A stretch of DNA of 9,487 nt from Terriglobia bacterium. Its GTDB lineage: Bacteria; Acidobacteriota; Terriglobia; UBA7540. Shown here piece after piece: positions 603 to 9,375 of the stretch; the stretch's first letter is position 1, and every line of letters starts with the position of its first letter. The position numbers and the translations under genes were made by a program. The stretch covers positions 1 through 9,487 of the forward strand of contig JASHYZ010000007.1 of NCBI GenBank assembly GCA_030042795.1, read 5' to 3'. The notes beneath the pieces were generated by a model. It saw only the letters and a program-made list of their open reading frames with translations, searched no databases and was not told where the DNA came from.

Positions 603-1532
603 ATGAGTCATTTTGATCGAAGAGGGTTCTTGCGAGGAGGCGCAGCGGCGGTGGCACTAGGGGCCGCTGGACGCAGGATTTCACGGTTGTGGGCCAACCC
701 GCTGGGCTTGCCCATCGGGCTTCAGCTTTACACCGTGCGTGAGCAAGCTGCAAAAGACATCAAGGGCACGCTCACGCAGGTTGCGGCGATTGGCTATCAA
801 GAGGTCGAGATCGACGGCTTTTACCACGAGAAGCCGGCGGAATTGAGGAAGACGATTGAAGCCGCAGGCCTGAAGGCGCCGAGCGGCCACTGCGGCGCCG
901 AGCAGTTGAAAAATGATCCCACAGAACTCATTGACTCTTACCGCGAGGTGGGCGCGCAATATCTGGTTTGCGCCTTTCCCGCTCATCGGCCGGGCGCGGC
1001 ACAGGCGATGGTCCGCGCGGCCGGGCAGCCTTTCGCGCCCAACTTTGACGCCGACGACTACAAGTGGATGGCCGAAGTCTTCAACAAAACCGGCGAACAG
1101 TGCCAGCAGGCGGGAATGCAGTTCGCTTATCACAACCACAATCTCGACTTCAAAACTTTCGACGGCGAGACGGCTCTTGACCAGCTTCTACACAACACGG
1201 ACTCCAAGCTTGTGCAACTCGAGCTGGACTGCTACTGGGTGTCGCGGGCGGGCAAGGATCCCGTGGACTACATGAAGCGCTACGCGGGACGCGTTCCCTT
1301 GCTGCACATCAAGGATATGAAGTCCGGCCTTACACCCACGACCGATATCATGAAAGGCGGAGACCACGACTTCATCGAAGTGGGTCGCGGATGTATTGAC
1401 TGGAAGCGAATCTTCAGCGCTGCTCCAGAAACGGGTGTAAAGCACTACTTCGTGGAGCAGGATGTCTGTGACGGCCCGCCCATTGAGAGCGCAAAGATCA
1501 GTTACGAATATTTGAAGAATCTCCAAGTCTGA
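603..1532 (+). CDS. Tat-exported sugar phosphate isomerase/epimerase-like TIM barrel
   Basis: A 309-residue protein of the xylose isomerase-like TIM-barrel superfamily (AP endonuclease 2 / IolE type, COG1082). The N-terminus MSHFDRRGFLRGG followed by a short Ala/Gly hydrophobic stretch is a twin-arginine signal (RR at 6-7, FL at 9-10), so the folded, metal-loaded enzyme is probably exported to the periplasm. Barrel landmarks: GLQLYTVRE (39-47), GYQEVEIDGF (64-73), HNHN (177-180), LELDCYW (206-212), LHIKD (234-238) and FVEQD (283-287). Glu, Asp and His residues in these strands are the expected divalent-metal ligands. The start is set by AAGGAGG at 587-593. The substrate cannot be read from sequence; the family acts on sugars, inositols and their keto forms. 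It appears monocistronic, converges on the ABC ATPase gene, and shows no functional link to the exporter. Confidence 0.87.
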   Translation: MSHFDRRGFLRGGAAAVALGAAGRRISRLWANPLGLPIGLQLYTVREQAAKDIKGTLTQVAAIGYQEVEIDGFYHEKPAELRKTIEAAGLKAPSGHCGAEQLKNDPTELIDSYREVGAQYLVCAFPAHRPGAAQAMVRAAGQPFAPNFDADDYKWMAEVFNKTGEQCQQAGMQFAYHNHNLDFKTFDGETALDQLLHNTDSKLVQLELDCYWVSRAGKDPVDYMKRYAGRVPLLHIKDMKSGLTPTTDIMKGGDHDFIEVGRGCIDWKRIFSAAPETGVKHYFVEQDVCDGPPIESAKISYEYLKNLQV

Positions 1533-1616
1533 AGAAGGAAGGAGCCAGAAGTAAGAAGTCAGGAGACAGAAGCTGAGACTCGAAAGTCGAAACTAGAAAT
1601 TCTAGAGTCGAATTGG
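1533..1616. repeat. Purine-rich heptad-repeat array (left arm)
   Basis: Starting on the first base after the epimerase-like stop codon, twelve 7-bp units run in unbroken register, of the type AGAAGTC or AGGAGAC. They degenerate rightwards into GAAAGTC and TAGAGTC. The reverse-complement vocabulary appears at 1679-1762. A 13-bp palindrome CTAGAAATTCTAG is at 1593-1605. Confidence 0.8.
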
Positions 1617-1678
1617 CTCGCAGATCAGCGCAAGCTGTGGAGGATCTTTGTACCAGGAGTTCGAATTTCGTGTTTCGT

Positions 1679-1762
1679 CTTCTGACCGCTGACTTCTTGC
1701 TTCTAACTTCTTACTTCTATCTTCTGTCTCCTGGCTTCTGACTCCTGGCTTCTGTCTCCTGC
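1679..1762. repeat. Pyrimidine-rich heptad-repeat array (right arm)
   Basis: Twelve consecutive 7-bp units in perfect register. The first is CTTCTGA (1679-1685) and the last CTCCTGC (1756-1762); the middle alternates CTTCTGN with CTCCTGG. Individual units are the reverse complement of units in the left arm. CTTCTGTCTCCTG at 1721-1733 and again at 1749-1761 complements 1560-1572. ACTTCTTACTTCT at 1706-1718 complements 1547-1559. The two matches are not colinear, so this is shared vocabulary rather than one clean hairpin. Confidence 0.85.
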
Positions 1763-1768
1763 TTTTTT
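1749..1768 (+). terminator. Possible terminator: heptad arm plus T-run
   Basis: CTTCTGTCTCCTG (1749-1761) can pair with CAGGAGACAGAAG (1560-1572) and is followed at once by C and six T. The stem and U-tract fit a rho-independent terminator for the plus-strand gene, but the loop would be about 176 bases, so this is tentative. Confidence 0.3.
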
Positions 1769-2460
1769 CACGCCACCTCTTGCCCCACCGGCAGCAGCTC
1801 GCCTTTTTCCAAATGGCGCGTCACGGTGGCGTAGCGGGCAGCGTGTGGATCGTGCGTGACCATCACAATGGTCTTCTTAAACTCGCTGTTCAGACGCGAG
1901 AGCATGTTGAGGACATCGTCGGCCGAGCTGGCGTCCAGGTTGCCGGTGGGCTCGTCGGCGAGAATCAGCTTGGGATCAGAAACGATGGCGCGCGCGATGG
2001 CTACGCGCTGCTCCTGCCCACCGGAAAGCTGGCGAGGATAGTGATCAAGCCGATCTCCCAACCCCACGAGCTGCAGTGCAGTGACGGCGTGTTCGCGGCG
2101 CTCTTGTTTGGAAAGATGCGTGAGTTTCAGGGGCAGTTCCACGTTCTCAAACGCAGTCAGTACCGGAATCAGATTAAAAGACTGGAAGACAAAGCCCACA
2201 TTTTCGTTGCGCCAGCGCGCCATCTCGCCATCCGAGAGCTTTCGCAGATCATCACCGAGCACACGAATCTCGCCGCTGGTGGGCGTGTCCATGGCGGCGA
2301 TTAAGTGCAATAGAGTGGTCTTGCCTGATCCCGACGGCCCCATCAGCACCACGAACTCGCCTTCGTGGATGTCAATGTCGACATCCTTCAGGGCCATCAC
2401 GTGAAACTCGTCGCGAATGTACTCTTTGGTGAGTCTTTGCGCCTCAATCACAATTGCCAT
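1768..2460 (-). CDS. ABC transporter ATP-binding protein, MacB/LolD/DevA type
   Basis: The 230-residue ATPase that powers the exporter encoded just upstream. All nucleotide-binding motifs are intact: Walker [10 protein letters not shown] (41-49), Q-loop Gln at about 93, ABC signature LSGGQEQR (145-152), Walker B LILADE (165-170), NLD D-loop (174-176) and switch His 203 in VTHD. The sequence around these motifs ([23 protein letters not shown]) is typical of the LolD/MacB/DevA clade, which pairs with FtsX-fold permeases. The start at 2460 is preceded by GGAG at an eight-base spacing. The frame stays open a further 32 codons upstream to 2556, but that stretch is REP-like palindromic DNA and was excluded. 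It is the last gene of the operon, converging on the epimerase-like gene. Confidence 0.93.
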
Positions 2461-2657
2461 GGAGTGTTCTCCGTTCCGTCGTTGGGGCGCCTCCTGTGGT
2501 GGCCCGCAGGGTAGGCACAGGGATGCCCGCCCAGGCGCGCCCCGGGGTTTGTACATTTACCCTGCACGGTCAGAGCCTGCCCTGAGCAAGGCGAAGGGAT
2601 GGCCGTGCCACGTGGCACGGGCTTCCAGCCCGTGAAGGGCAGGCACAAGGCCTACCC
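2461..2657. repeat. Block of REP-like palindromes between two operon genes
   Basis: Begins at the lipocalin-like stop codon. It contains the 18-bp perfect palindrome CCGTGCCACGTGGCACGG (2603-2620), overlapped by a second hairpin, CACGGGCT/AGCCCGTG with a 3-base loop (2616-2634). An imperfect hairpin of GGGCAGGC with GCCTACCC abuts the lipocalin-like stop codon. A related unit AGGGTAGGCACAGG near the ATPase start matches 12 of 14 bases of AGGGCAGGCACAAG near 2637-2650. Such structures commonly behave as REP elements; in the mRNA they could stabilise or separate the upstream message. Confidence 0.65.
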
Positions 2658-3032
2658 CTACTTCGCCGTCGCGCGTTTGAGCGTGGCATCCGTACCCCAA
2701 CTGCCGTCGTCCGTGCCAATGTGAAGCTGAATCTGATCTCCGTTCACCTTTCCTGCCGCCACCAGCTTGATGGGCTGGCCCTGCCATTCTGACGCCACCG
2801 AAAACGAGAGGTTGTCACCATCGAGTTTCCCGTCCGCTATGGGAAGTTCCTTGCCTTCCATGCTCAGCATGGTTCCCGTGAGCTTGTTATTGTCGCTCCG
2901 AAAGGTAAAAGTGAATGACGGACCCTGGTCAGACTCGCCGGTCCATTTACCGCTGACGTCGGCGGCGAAGAGCAGGGAACCGAACAGGCCCACCAGAAAC
3001 AGACTGGTCACCAAAAGCCGTGTTGTGCGCAT
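2658..3032 (-). CDS. Small secreted lipocalin-like beta protein
   Basis: A 124-residue protein with an N-terminal signal: basic MRTTR, then a hydrophobic stretch of about 18 residues ending LLFA, with probable cleavage near AADVSG. The mature part has alternating polar/apolar strands and the pattern DVSGKWTGESD...FTFTF...KLTGTM...GKLDGDNLSFSV...GKVNGDQIQLHI. This resembles the small single-domain beta-barrel/lipocalin-like secreted proteins common in Acidobacteriota and Planctomycetota. No catalytic motif is visible and its role is unknown. It sits between the fusion protein and the ATPase of the exporter, so it may be cargo or a periplasmic partner (inference). GAGGAG at 3042-3047 directly abuts an ATG at 3041 but is nine bases from the ATG at 3032, so 3032 is preferred; starting at 3041 would add three residues. 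Confidence 0.75.
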   Translation of the reverse strand: MRTTRLLVTSLFLVGLFGSLLFAADVSGKWTGESDQGPSFTFTFRSDNNKLTGTMLSMEGKELPIADGKLDGDNLSFSVASEWQGQPIKLVAAGKVNGDQIQLHIGTDDGSWGTDATLKRATAK

Positions 3033-4573: not shown

Positions 4574-4749
4574 GAGGAGTCAGAAGCCAGAAGGAACAAT
4601 CCTCATTGTTCAGCAGCCGTCTCCGTTATAGACTTCTACTTTGTTCTATTAGAGTTACCCAGTCTAGCGACGTCTCATCCAGTCTCATTCTGACTTCTGA
4701 CTCCTTGCTTCTGTTTTCTTGCTTCTGACTCCTGACTCCTGACTTCAGG
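4574..4749. repeat. Heptad-repeat intergenic element between permease 2 and fusion protein
   Basis: The left arm has three purine-rich 7-bp units (4574-4594). The right arm has nine pyrimidine-rich units in register (4687-4749), ending about ten bases from the permease stop codon. GGAGTCAGAAGC (4576-4587) is the perfect reverse complement of 4721-4732. Between the arms lies a short hairpin, GAACAAT/ATTGTTC with loop CCTC (4594-4611). The units match those at 1533-1762. Confidence 0.8.
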
Positions 4750-4758
4750 TTTTCACTT

Positions 4759-5925
4759 CTACGCCTGCCTTAGGGCGGCCACGATCTCCTTGCGCGCGGC
4801 GCTGAACGCCGGGAACAGTCCGCCGAGCGCTCCCAGGACCATTGCAAAGATCACACCCTTCAACATAATATCGGGCGTCACCTTGAAGTTGAACGCTGTC
4901 TGAGCAAAAGTCGCGAAGTTACCAATGGTGGCGGTGATGCCGTTCAAGGGCAGCACCAGAATGCACCCGATCAGGCCGCCAACGATGGAGAGCAGAACCG
5001 CTTCGATGAAAAAGCTCAGCAAGACCGAGCCGCGCGAGAAGCCCAACACTCGCAAGGTGCCGATTTCGGCCGTCCGGCGCGCCACGGCGGCGTACATCGT
5101 ATTCATGGCCGCGAACGCGCTGCCCACCGCCATGATGATGGAGCAGAAAATCCCGAGGAACTCGACGGGCGCGCCTGACGAGGTCTGATTGTCGTAGTAC
5201 GTCTTCTCAGACATGGCCGTCATGTTGAGCTGCTGGTCGCTCTCGATGTTCTTAATCAACGCATCCGCAGCCACCGGGTCCGTAGCGCGCAGCAACGCCG
5301 AGCTTAGCACCGCGCTGCGGTTCTGGTCGGCGCTCAACTGATTGAGGTCCGCAAAGATCTCGCTGTTGGTGGCGCTCTGGCCTGCGGACATCACGCCCAC
5401 CACGTCCCAGTCCGCGCTTCCGAGGCGCAACTTGCCTCCCAACCGCGCCTGCGCATAGGCTTTGGCAATGGATTGTCCCACCACCACCTCTCGCTTGCCG
5501 GGCTCGAACCAACGTCCCTCCACAATCCTCAAACCTTCGCGCAGTTCGATGCCAACCGGAGTCAACCCACGCAGCGTAATATTCTGCCCGTCGGGATTCG
5601 CCTCGTTCGCCAAGTTGACGATGGTGACCATCTCCAGCGATGCCAAAGGCTGGCCGGAACTGTCGCGCGCGATCCCAGGCTTGTCTTTCAACACCTGGAA
5701 ATTCGCACGCGTGAAGTTGCTCACCAGTTCTGTGGTCGATCCCTTCCGTAGAACCAGGACGTGCAAAGGATCGCCGGTGGAGTGGAGCGAGGAGTCCAAA
5801 CCATTCACCAAGGCAAGAATCGCCAACAGGACAGAAACCGTCAGCGCGATGCCCAACGCTGTCATGACGGTGGTGGTCTTTCTCACCAGAAGGTTCCGGA
5901 AATTGTATGCGATGGGAATGGACAT
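4759..5925 (-). CDS. ABC transporter permease, FtsX/MacB fold (permease 2)
   Basis: A 388-residue inner-membrane permease with the four-helix MacB/FtsX architecture: TM1 at about 17-41, a large periplasmic domain at about 45-250, then TM2 (about 254-281), TM3 (about 302-328) and TM4 (about 354-374). The cytoplasmic loop after TM2, RRTAEIGTLRVLGFSRGSVL (283-302), is the coupling motif of FtsX-domain proteins that contacts the ATPase. The C-terminus FPAFSAARKEIVAALR is also typical. The start at 5925 gives MSIPIAYNFRNLLVRKTTT, matching permease family N-termini. The frame is open a further 52 codons to 6081, but that stretch runs through heptad repeats and the end of the neighbouring gene, so it was rejected. 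No clear Shine-Dalgarno precedes 5925. It probably pairs with permease 1 as a heterodimer; DevC/LolE-like proteins are the closest functional analogues. Confidence 0.9.
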   Translation of the reverse strand: MSIPIAYNFRNLLVRKTTTVMTALGIALTVSVLLAILALVNGLDSSLHSTGDPLHVLVLRKGSTTELVSNFTRANFQVLKDKPGIARDSSGQPLASLEMVTIVNLANEANPDGQNITLRGLTPVGIELREGLRIVEGRWFEPGKREVVVGQSIAKAYAQARLGGKLRLGSADWDVVGVMSAGQSATNSEIFADLNQLSADQNRSAVLSSALLRATDPVAADALIKNIESDQQLNMTAMSEKTYYDNQTSSGAPVEFLGIFCSIIMAVGSAFAAMNTMYAAVARRTAEIGTLRVLGFSRGSVLLSFFIEAVLLSIVGGLIGCILVLPLNGITATIGNFATFAQTAFNFKVTPDIMLKGVIFAMVLGALGGLFPAFSAARKEIVAALRQA

Positions 5926-5931
5926 AGAACT

Positions 5932-6004
5932 TAAGCCAAGAGCCAGTAGGCAAGAGCCAATAAAGCCAACACTATTCCTCTTGCCTCTTGGCCATTGCCT
6001 TTCA
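5932..6004. repeat. Inverted heptad element between the two permease genes
   Basis: The left arm has TAAGCCA, AGAGCCA, GTAGGCA and AGAGCCA (5932-5959). The right arm has CCTCTTG twice, then GCCATTG and CCTTTCA (5977-6004), the last unit overlapping the TGA of permease 1. GCCAAGAG at 5935-5942 pairs with 5985-5992, and GGCAAGAG at 5949-5956 pairs with 5978-5985, giving a nearly colinear hairpin. This element fills almost the whole gap between the genes. Confidence 0.8.
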
Positions 6005-7250: not shown

Positions 7251-7313
7251 GAGGCAGTTAGAAGCCAGAAGTCAGAGCCAATGGCCAAGAGCCAAAAGGC
7301 AAGAGCCAGAGGC
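7251..7313. repeat. Heptad-repeat array in the leader of the permease operon
   Basis: Nine 7-bp units in register, changing from the CCAGAAG type (as at 1533) to the CAAGAGC type (as at 5932), so the array joins both sub-vocabularies in one tract. No pyrimidine-rich partner arm was found next to it. It lies between the operon promoter and the permease 1 start, so it should be transcribed. Confidence 0.75.
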
Positions 7314-7581: not shown

Positions 7582-7818
7582 GCAGCCTGCGGAAAAAGTC
7601 AGTTTCGGGCCTCGAAAGGGCGGGGCTGAAGAGTCTGTGTGAAAACTCGTGGATTCCCGCTTTCGCGGGAATGACCGGGTTGGAGTGGACCCCGTAAACC
7701 CGATGATGTCACCCCCACGCAAGCGGAGGCCCACAGCAGGCAATGGCGAGCACAAGTTTTCACACATGCTCTCCAGCCCCGCCCAAAAGCATGCCCTGAT
7801 AGTTTTTCCGCAGCCTGC
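7582..7818. mobile_element. TA-flanked MITE-like element containing repeat copy 1
   Basis: 237 bp bounded on each side by TA (7580-7581 and 7819-7820). The outer ends are inverted repeats, GCAGCCTGCGGAAAAA on the left and GCAGGCTGCGGAAAAA reading in from the right (15 of 16 match). A second inner pair of 34-bp inverted repeats (7618-7651 with 7784-7751, 30 of 34 match) encloses a core with the hairpin ATTCCCGC/GCGGGAAT. There is no transposase; a 62-codon open frame on the minus strand looks incidental. TA flanks and non-coding inverted repeats fit a MITE mobilised in trans, IS630/Tc1-mariner style (inference). It lies 32 bp past the sigma factor stop. Confidence 0.65.
7616..7782. repeat. 167-bp direct repeat, copy 1
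   Basis: Matches 8490-8656 over 167 bp with no gaps and six substitutions (about 96%), same orientation, 874 bp apart. Four of the six differences fall in the left inverted-repeat end. Confidence 0.9.
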
Positions 7819-7852: not shown

Positions 7853-8707
7853 TCAAGGCGCCCCTAGCACGGCTGCCAGTTGGCCCAGCCACCTGCCAGT
7901 TCCTTGCAGACTGCCAGCCCCACTTGCCCGTTTCCGGTTTCCGCGGCGCGGCCGGGCCTTGCAGCCAGCCAGAATCGAGCGCAACTGCTGCTTGGCGCGG
8001 AAAATCAGCAAACCAACGTTTGCCTTGCTTATGCCCAGCGTCTTCGCGATTTCATTGTAGCTCAGGTCGCTGAAATACCGCATGACCAGCGGAACCAGGT
8101 AGCGCTCGGGAAGCCTAAAGATGGCATCGCGGACCACGTCCGATCTCTCCTTTGAGACCAAATCCTCGAACGGCGAGCGAAGCGGGGCAGCGGTCTCCGG
8201 CAAGTCGAGGTTGTCAGCCTGGATGACCCTCTGCTCAGACCTGCGCTTTCGCAGCAGATCGATGCAGTGATTACTGGCCACCCGCGCCAGCCAACGGTCG
8301 AACGGCTGCGAGGAATCGTACGATTCGAGCGAATTCGGAAGCTTCACGAAGACGTCGTTTGCCGCGTCCTCGGCTTCTTCGGGCGATCCCAGCATTCGCC
8401 GGCATGTCCGGAGTACCTTCGGATGGTGTTCCTCGTAGATTTGGGCAAAATCTTCTCGGCTGGGCCTTCGGTTCTCACCGTTGCCCGGCAAGGGCGGGGC
8501 TTTAGATTCTGTATGAAAACTCGTGGATTCCCGCTTTCGCGGGAATGACCGGGTTGGAGTGGACCCCGTAAACCCGATGATGTCACCCCCACGCAAGCGG
8601 AGGTCCACAGCAGGCAATGGCGAGCACAAATTTTCACACATGCTCTCCAGCCCCGCTCTCGTCGAATCGTCGCAAGAACCGTGATTCAGGACGTTTAATG
8701 TGTTCAT
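7853..8707 (-). CDS. ECF sigma-70 family factor with repeat-encoded N-terminal extension
   Basis: An RNA polymerase sigma factor of the extracytoplasmic-function type. Region 2 lies at about 87-155 (FAQIYEEHHPKVLRTCRRML, EDAANDVFVKL, then RWLARVASNHCIDLLRKRR). Region 4 is at about 193-246 with a helix-turn-helix (LPERYLVPLVMRYF, LSYNEIAKTLGISKANVGLLIFRAKQQLR). The ATG at 8707-8705 overlaps the TetR stop as ATGA, implying translational coupling, and gives 284 residues. Residues about 18-73 are encoded by a 167-bp repeat (8490-8656) read in frame, so the usual N-terminus is replaced or lengthened by low-complexity sequence including SFPRKRES. Alternatives are an ATG at 8641 within the repeat, which has GGAG just upstream, or a TTG near 8491. 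A basic tail of about 38 residues follows region 4. No anti-sigma gene follows; a MITE-like element does. It may or may not still work. Confidence 0.85.
   Translation of the reverse strand: MNTLNVLNHGSCDDSTRAGLESMCENLCSPLPAVDLRLRGGDIIGFTGSTPTRSFPRKRESTSFHTESKAPPLPGNGENRRPSREDFAQIYEEHHPKVLRTCRRMLGSPEEAEDAANDVFVKLPNSLESYDSSQPFDRWLARVASNHCIDLLRKRRSEQRVIQADNLDLPETAAPLRSPFEDLVSKERSDVVRDAIFRLPERYLVPLVMRYFSDLSYNEIAKTLGISKANVGLLIFRAKQQLRSILAGCKARPRRGNRKRASGAGSLQGTGRWLGQLAAVLGAP
8490..8656. mobile_element. 167-bp repeat copy 2, inserted in the sigma factor gene
   Basis: The inner element of the TA-flanked copy, without its outer GCAGSCTGCGGAAAAA ends. Terminal inverted repeats 8492-8525 and 8658-8625 match at 25 of 34; the left end has diverged. 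The core hairpin ATTCCCGC/GCGGGAAT is intact. It is open in the sigma reading frame across its whole length, so it adds about 56 codons instead of breaking the gene. Confidence 0.8.
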
Positions 8708-9375
8708 GGTCGCCACTCTGTTGCTTGCGCAGGTCTTTCGGCCACAGCACGAATGCCGGCCAGAGAAAACTGATAAACATGGTCCGCAAGGGCGTCAATT
8801 ATTTCCGGAGTGTATTTGAAACCCAGCGGCGCCATCCGCGCAGTGATCGGCTTGGAACTCTTGTAAAACAGGCACTGCGCTTGAATGCTAAGGAAACATT
8901 GCCAAACCCTCTCATCGTTGAGGGACGTGTTAAGAAGCTCGGCGACCATACCGCCGAGTCGCAAACTTGTTGGTTTAATGCCCTTCTCAACGATCAGGTC
9001 TAGCGCGGGCGTTGGGTCAATCATTTCACGCGCGATGAGCTTATCCATCCACGAGTCTTCTTCGGGGTCGAGAAGCCTGTGGAGTAACAGCCGGATGTAG
9101 GTGCGCAAGCGCTCCTCCGGAGGTAACGGCTCGGCTGCCTCAATAAGGTCTACTTTGATCTGGTGCACAGCCTTCGCAGCCATTTCCACCACCTCCTTGT
9201 AGAGGCCCAGCTTGTCGCGAAAGTGATAGTTCACAGCGGCCAGATTGGCGCCCGCCACCTGGCAGATCTCACGAATGGTGACGTTGTTGAATCCCTGCTC
9301 GGCGAAGAGCTCGGCAGCAACATGGAGGAGACGCAGGCGGGTCTCGATATCAGAGGTAGGGCCTGTGGTCACCAT
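8704..9375 (-). CDS. TetR-family repressor, CecR/YbiH-like C-terminal domain
   Basis: A 223-residue transcriptional repressor. N-terminal DNA-binding domain with the TetR helix-turn-helix: LLHVAAELFAEQGFNNVTIREI (16-37), then VAGANLAAVNYHFRDKLGLYKEVV (40-63). The C-terminal half has the CerR/YbiH (DUF1956) pattern PEEDSWMDKLIAREMIDPTPALDLIVEKGIKP. In E. coli, CecR (YbiH) of this type controls a membrane fusion protein/ABC exporter operon, and an MFP/ABC operon lies downstream here, so control of that exporter is a reasonable inference. The effector is unknown. The gene has its own promoter and a palindromic operator (9406-9452), consistent with autorepression. The start at 9375 lacks a clear Shine-Dalgarno; the next codon is GTG, but the family N-terminus fits either. 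The stop overlaps the sigma factor start (ATGA). Confidence 0.92.
   Translation of the reverse strand: MVTTGPTSDIETRLRLLHVAAELFAEQGFNNVTIREICQVAGANLAAVNYHFRDKLGLYKEVVEMAAKAVHQIKVDLIEAAEPLPPEERLRTYIRLLLHRLLDPEEDSWMDKLIAREMIDPTPALDLIVEKGIKPTSLRLGGMVAELLNTSLNDERVWQCFLSIQAQCLFYKSSKPITARMAPLGFKYTPEIIDALADHVYQFSLAGIRAVAERPAQATEWRP

Follow-up and report, generated by a model that had tools for sequence, protein, structure and literature searches.

The stretch of DNA analysed here (the window, 9,487 nucleotides from a Terriglobia bacterium of the Acidobacteriota) raises the question of how repeat DNA came to form the N-terminus of an ECF sigma factor, and whether the resulting protein segment is made and serves any purpose. 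According to the ORF list and Pfam, the minus strand of the window encodes a TetR regulator, the ECF sigma factor, two MacB/FtsX-type permeases and an HlyD-type fusion protein; a further ORF (2556-1768) resembles an ABC ATPase, as judged from its sequence. The TetR regulator, which contains a CecR_C domain (8704..9375, minus strand), lies upstream of the sigma gene (7853..8707, minus strand; 284 aa) and is coupled to it through an ATGA overlap of the TetR stop and the sigma start (8704..8707, minus strand). The same overlap occurs at 9980-9983 of locus L001, whose DNA represents the plain arrangement with a short lead ahead of region 2 and the FtsX gene 115 bp past the sigma stop. The equivalent gap in the window measures 687 bp and contains one copy of a repeat. 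Among the genomes compared by the permease protein, the closest are G001 (81%) and G002 (80%), with 4 of 40 genomes matching at E 1e-100. Imperfect short direct and inverted repeats of the CTTCTGACTCCTGGCTTC and GCCAAGAGCCA types are also found between genes of the window, at 1533-1770, 4674-4767, 5935-5959 and 7251-7308.

The sigma frame is open throughout, from the ATG at 8707 to the stop ending at 7853. Pfam Sigma70_r2 (residues 90-156) and Sigma70_r4_2 (residues 192-242) both score far over the Pfam cut-offs and the match to TIGR02937 exceeds its own, so that by its profiles the protein, with sigma-70 regions 2 and 4, is an ECF sigma factor. Its core, delimited by Pfam, the AlphaFold model and the alignment, comprises residues 85-250 with regions 2 and 4 (7958..8455, minus strand). 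Because the part shared with lead-free relatives begins at residue 85 and Pfam region 2 at residue 90, the lead can be put at about 84-89 residues; residues 1-84 are used below. A second copy of the repeat forms sigma codons 17-72 and begins 16 codons past the TetR-overlapping ATG. The original prediction of about 56 in-frame residues derived from a mobile-type repeat, behind the coupled ATG and ahead of region 2, is thereby borne out, with 56 codons contributed. That the element can be read through in this frame is unremarkable, since 9 of the 48 frames of eight family elements, several of them near-duplicates, are open from end to end.

Both copies of the element measure 167 bp from TIR to TIR on the minus strand, copy 1 lying between the sigma gene and the FtsX-type permease gene (7618..7784) and copy 2 within the sigma gene (8492..8658). 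The repeat alignment (7609-7782 against 8483-8656) extends over 174 nt at 95% identity in the same orientation, 874 bp apart, and the likeness is beyond chance. The repeat comparison places the terminal inverted repeats of copy 2, 27 bp each as used here and not assigned to a strand, at 8492..8518 and 8632..8658. Between them lies a REP-like palindrome, GTCATTCCCGCGAAAGCGGGAAT (8527..8549, minus strand), which is common in the order of G001; a second palindrome in copy 2 is diverged and unmatched by the REP pattern. With MITEs the element shares its short, non-coding make-up, its terminal inverted repeats and its several copies, and it is called MITE-like here. No clear target site duplication was seen by eye in the flanks inspected. 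Copy 2 folds better than its shuffled versions both as DNA (z -3.7) and as RNA (z -6.5), none of 200 shuffles being equally good in either case. The predicted RNA hairpin (-89.6 kcal/mol) would start about 46 nt past the sigma ATG and could affect the message; no known RNA family was detected at the gathering threshold.

A search with sigma residues 76-284 returned 560 proteins at E <= 1e-3. Among the best 120 of these 560, leads were found in P0001-P0004. In the nearest outgroups region 2 begins about 11-14 residues after the start, and the repeat is missing there, as had been anticipated for homologues lacking the insertion. Leaving P0001-P0004 aside, the best 120 have an EAEDA-type motif 33-47 residues from the start, apart from P0012, P0015, P0016, P0085 and P0105 (7-25) and P0084 (260), and the motif pattern failed to match in eight rows. 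In P0012, P0015 and P0016, all placed outside the lead clade, the annotated start falls within region 2 (MLGS.., MICRRMLGS..); these are perhaps broken leads or start-calling errors. P0084 is a 425-aa fusion of a TetR/CecR regulator and an ECF sigma factor, in which the stop at the TetR-sigma junction was lost in another lineage. The lead-free relatives rule out the lead as an old conserved ECF extension. In searches with leads alone, residues 1-82 of the window sigma returned only P0001 (1 of 15 candidates), and the P0002 lead returned P0002 and P0003 among 31, so that a lead widespread in proteins is ruled out at this sensitivity. Distant orthologues with the same N-terminal residues, the finding that would have spoken against an insertion, did not appear. 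In the class-wide sigma search, with no more than eight candidates scored per genome, one genome of 399 matched at E 1e-60, and tblastn of the P0002 and P0003 leads against 40 genomes gave weak matches in five at E 0.01 and in one at E 0.001. One match to the P0002 lead, L100, is repeat-like and interrupted by stops (RAGL*PRR..GGAEAPP).

The proteins that do carry a lead indicate that the site has a longer history than one insertion. P0001 is 99% identical to the window sigma over residues 76-284 of the latter and shares its first 82 residues exactly. P0002, P0003 and P0004 are 79-81% identical to the window sigma and have in common with it a left part of 16 residues, a RAG(L/I) left edge, an APPLP right edge and 9-10 residues of right flank that include RR. 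In the window, the left flank corresponds to residues 9-16 (8660..8683, minus strand) and the right flank to residues 75-84 (8456..8485, minus strand). The left-flank pattern is missing in lead-free relatives and, judging from this distribution, is part of the older insertion. What lies between the flanks differs. P0002 and P0003 agree at 158 of 165 core positions and at 13 of 16 and 9 of 10 flank positions, and yet their interiors are no closer than chance, 672 of 1000 shuffles doing as well. By the same measure P0002 and P0004 have related interiors (0 of 1000 shuffles as good), and the interior of the window lead resembles neither that of P0002 (764 of 1000) nor that of P0004 (428 of 1000). 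Read straight, the interiors of the window and P0003 give 19 of 1000 shuffles as good. On the opposite strand, however, the translation of window copy 1 matches P0003 residues 17-71 at 29 of 55 positions without gaps (E 4e-16, as a single comparison), the two stops of copy 1 on that strand being K and Q in P0003. By this alignment, an element of the window's kind occupies the corresponding residues of P0003, in reversed orientation. No lead length is fixed either, as the middle parts measure 58, 52, 58 and 37 residues across the lead-bearing sequences.

Since the leads share the ends of the slot and not its interior, the protein comparison argues that an in-frame slot predates its present content, which was exchanged. 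Of the original insertion claim the in-frame repeat is thus real, but a single insertion is an incomplete account. A tree built from 45 core sequences unites the five lead-bearing rows with P0005 in a clade (98/95); P0005 itself lacks a lead and falls within this clade at weak nodes (91/80, 91/66). Both one gain followed by one loss and a position of P0005 as sister to the lead-bearing rows are possible on this topology. Just outside both ends of copy 2, the window has an inverted pair of CGGTTCT (8469-8475 and 8675-8681), each member 33 bp from the inner end of GCGGGGCT on its side; the pair is possibly an older outer end of the slot, or chance.

The same pattern of kept ends and differing interiors recurs in the repeat family. 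Within the order of G001, 14 of 40 genomes contain the TIR pattern at up to three mismatches, and none of the 40 contains its reversed control. The two window copies and six paired-TIR elements of relatives, a subset of all pairs, were compared with one another. Across the resulting 28 pairs the TIRs are 73-94% identical; the interiors are similar in three pairs (0.81-0.98), and in the other 25 they lie inside or barely over the range of 30 shuffles (largest excess 0.51 vs 0.50). Because the TIRs are alike and most interiors are at the level of shuffles, this family seems to exchange its interiors as a habit and to keep its ends. Two elements of G006, L058 and L083, share outer flanks past the TIR (CACGGACGAGGGAGG, CCCAGCGGTCGG) and have unrelated interiors. 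Copy 1 with its flanks was matched in 20 of 40 genomes of the order at E 0.001 (at most 19 candidates scored per genome) and copy 2 in 19 of 299 genomes of the class at 1e-4 (two scored per genome). The full-length window element was not found in the 40 genomes of the order, the matches being mainly to the palindrome or the ends, and the best class-wide match extends over roughly half of copy 2, at 80%. Inverted REP pairs, the hallmark of REPs and REPINs, are present in relatives, for example at L028, L031, L088, L089 and L091.

Neither paired TIRs nor paired REPs were seen beside the 30 of 49 Y1_Tnp matches that were examined in eight genomes; the sole matches there were single and weak, one of them TIR-like and the other REP-like (L119), and other loci, 291,572 bases in all, gave 0 matches to these patterns. 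Paired TIRs of the window type around a Y1 transposase are ruled out at the 30 loci. No RAYT beside or flanked by the repeat was found among them, and no transposase with matching ends, Y1_Tnp being the one transposase tried (30 loci, eight genomes). An exact piece of the repeat had 0 matching stretches in viral contigs and the sigma factor had no relative there; in the plasmid collection, two records labelled Neisseria gonorrhoeae matched in short palindromic stretches. Across 69 loci, 30 of 62 elements lie inside some ORF of at least 120 aa. Most of these ORFs look spurious; the two on which Pfam was run are both Pfam-supported genes with an in-frame REP. One (L039, 564-2204, minus strand) encodes a PilS-like sensor kinase with the REP between two PAS part-matches, the other (L053, 1-2256) a GH106/laminin-G protein with the REP past both domains. 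In L069, a TIR-like stretch (three mismatches) overlaps the apparent signal peptide start of a long ORF at 1462-3027 (MKIFTHTLQLLLL..).

Taken together, these observations are best explained, with a probability of roughly 0.65, by a translated, disordered and tolerated lead on an intact ECF sigma factor, encoded in an older slot whose content has been replaced. An ancestral sigma gene would have gained an in-frame insertion directly behind codon 8 or so, downstream of the TetR-coupled ATG and ahead of region 2. This would have left a slot bounded by RAG(L/I).. and ..APPLP, the translated GCGGGGCT / AGCCCCGC repeat ends, in which different repeats later replaced one another, whether by new insertion, gene conversion or inversion. 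The present content in the window would be the 167-bp MITE-like element with its 27-bp terminal inverted repeats and REP-like palindrome, and translation starting at the coupled ATG would run through the whole lead of about 84 residues, giving a disordered tail that the intact sigma factor tolerates, presumably at no selective cost or gain. In the AlphaFold model the lead indeed has pLDDT <50, which is read as disorder, and residues 84-163 and 179-250 form helices, for the most part confidently modelled. A long lead appears compatible with sigma activity by analogy, because mycobacterial SigE chains in solved initiation complexes carry 83-90 residues ahead of the matched part (in chain numbering, which may include tags). 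Query residue 86 aligns to chain residue 83-90 of these proteins; the match excludes the leads, however, and that of the window is repeat-derived.

Translation of the lead from the coupled ATG is, in our judgement, the likely case. It is favoured because Met is missing between residue 2 and region 2 in both P0002 and P0004, so that their first ATG is the only one that yields a whole region 2, although GTG or TTG starts are conceivable in these two proteins. Alternatively, the lead could be mostly untranslated, with the start inside or after the repeat (ATG 8641, GTG 8608, TTG 8491 or another) and the repeat acting, if at all, as a hairpin in the TetR-sigma RNA that alters stability, processing or coupling. 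The strength and position of the predicted hairpin would suit this explanation, and many N-terminal intragenic REPs may be non-coding according to PMC3733652. Lead codons do not score as coding either, whereas core codons do, but a negative score fits an untranslated and a newly translated lead alike. A restart inside the repeat, as raised in the original prediction, gains little from the internal in-frame ATG at residue 23 (8639..8641, minus strand): GGAG stands just 3 nt upstream, this start would keep about 62 residues of the lead, P0002 and P0004 lack an internal Met, and the ATGA overlap is retained as in L001. We consider a largely untranslated lead rather unlikely in the window. Some of the leads may nevertheless be annotation artefacts, since open frames are common in the family (9 of 48) and gene finders favour long frames. 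A neutral-decay simulation of an 84-codon lead gave probabilities of an open frame of 0.31 and 0.04 at 0.2 and 0.8 substitutions per site without indels, and of 0.06 and 0 with indels; being tied to assumed distances, it is not taken as evidence.

If the lead is translated as a tolerated tail, no service role is required to account for it. A domesticated N-terminal extension that regulates the sigma factor, for example through self-inhibition or proteolysis, would have precedents in ECF groups with N- or C-terminal regulatory extensions (PMC8999054), and the slot flanks are common to the lead-bearing relatives. However, Pfam and TIGR profile scans detected no known domain in the lead, which is neither conserved nor, in the AlphaFold model, folded as a regulatory extension should be. 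Its interior, orientation and length vary among relatives, and together with codon usage the first and last of these look unconstrained from the sequence comparison. Even the flanks are less conserved than the core (left flank 7-9 of 16 positions against 140-144 of 165, window vs P0002-P0004). The domesticated MITE that had been envisaged is therefore not shown, and a regulatory lead seems quite improbable. The slot might instead serve recombination, its TIR-bounded segment being swapped or inverted so as to give alternative N-termini or, if stops lie on the inverted strand, an on/off state; this is suggested because the element of P0003 is reversed at the same residues and the window copy, when inverted in silico, brings a stop into the frame at residue 21, and we think it very improbable. 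Decay of the sigma gene, with the repeat as a step to a pseudogene, could be read from the deviation of the window at 3 of 64 strongly conserved core columns, the joint highest of 44 rows, and from the stem branch of the window and P0001 (0.18) in the core tree. Three lead-free rows deviate equally, though, the branch of P0010 is 0.21, the frame is intact, core codons score as coding and regions 2 and 4 exceed their cut-offs by far. A dying gene is thus very improbable, and the silencing that had also been considered is not indicated, regions 2 and 4 being intact.

A tolerated lead in an exchangeable slot would join other known cases. In-frame palindromic repeats as such are established, as Rickettsia palindromic elements (RPEs) and as intragenic REPs, and a narrow search of the open-licence literature found no report of a repeat-built sigma N-terminus. 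RPEs are palindromic repeats of about 150 bp that lie in frame in protein-coding genes (PMC10969869), and the element in the sigma slot is likewise palindromic and in frame in a gene with repeat-free homologues. It differs in belonging to another phylum and another repeat family, in being known from one slot gene and two other Pfam-supported genes and from sequence alone, and in that reading frame and orientation vary between relatives. The TIRtrons or TIRYT of Acidobacteria are TIR-bounded repeats of the same phylum as the window (PMC3733652). Unlike these, the window TIR does not show the reported GGGGWSAS motif by eye, and its paired form is absent beside the 30 of 49 Y1_Tnp matches examined in the eight genomes. 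Intragenic GTAG/CGTC REPs are palindromes inside ORFs, some of them N-terminal, and different REPs occupy about the same recB site in two Xanthomonas species (Di Nocera 2013; PMC3733652). Here, the REP-like palindrome is part of a larger element bounded by 27-bp terminal inverted repeats, and exchanged or inverted content is seen in relatives whose cores are near-identical. The locus is a clear instance of repeat DNA written into a protein in a soil-type bacterium, which does not imply that the lead is useful. It also offers a set of natural variants with which to ask if segments of this sort are translated, by what route they are exchanged and what amount of unrelated sequence the N-terminus of an ECF sigma factor tolerates. 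Beside the known systems, this locus shows unrelated content on near-identical sigma cores (P0002 and P0003) inside shared ends at one gene site, together with one pair (the window and P0003) in which one kind of element stands in opposite orientations.
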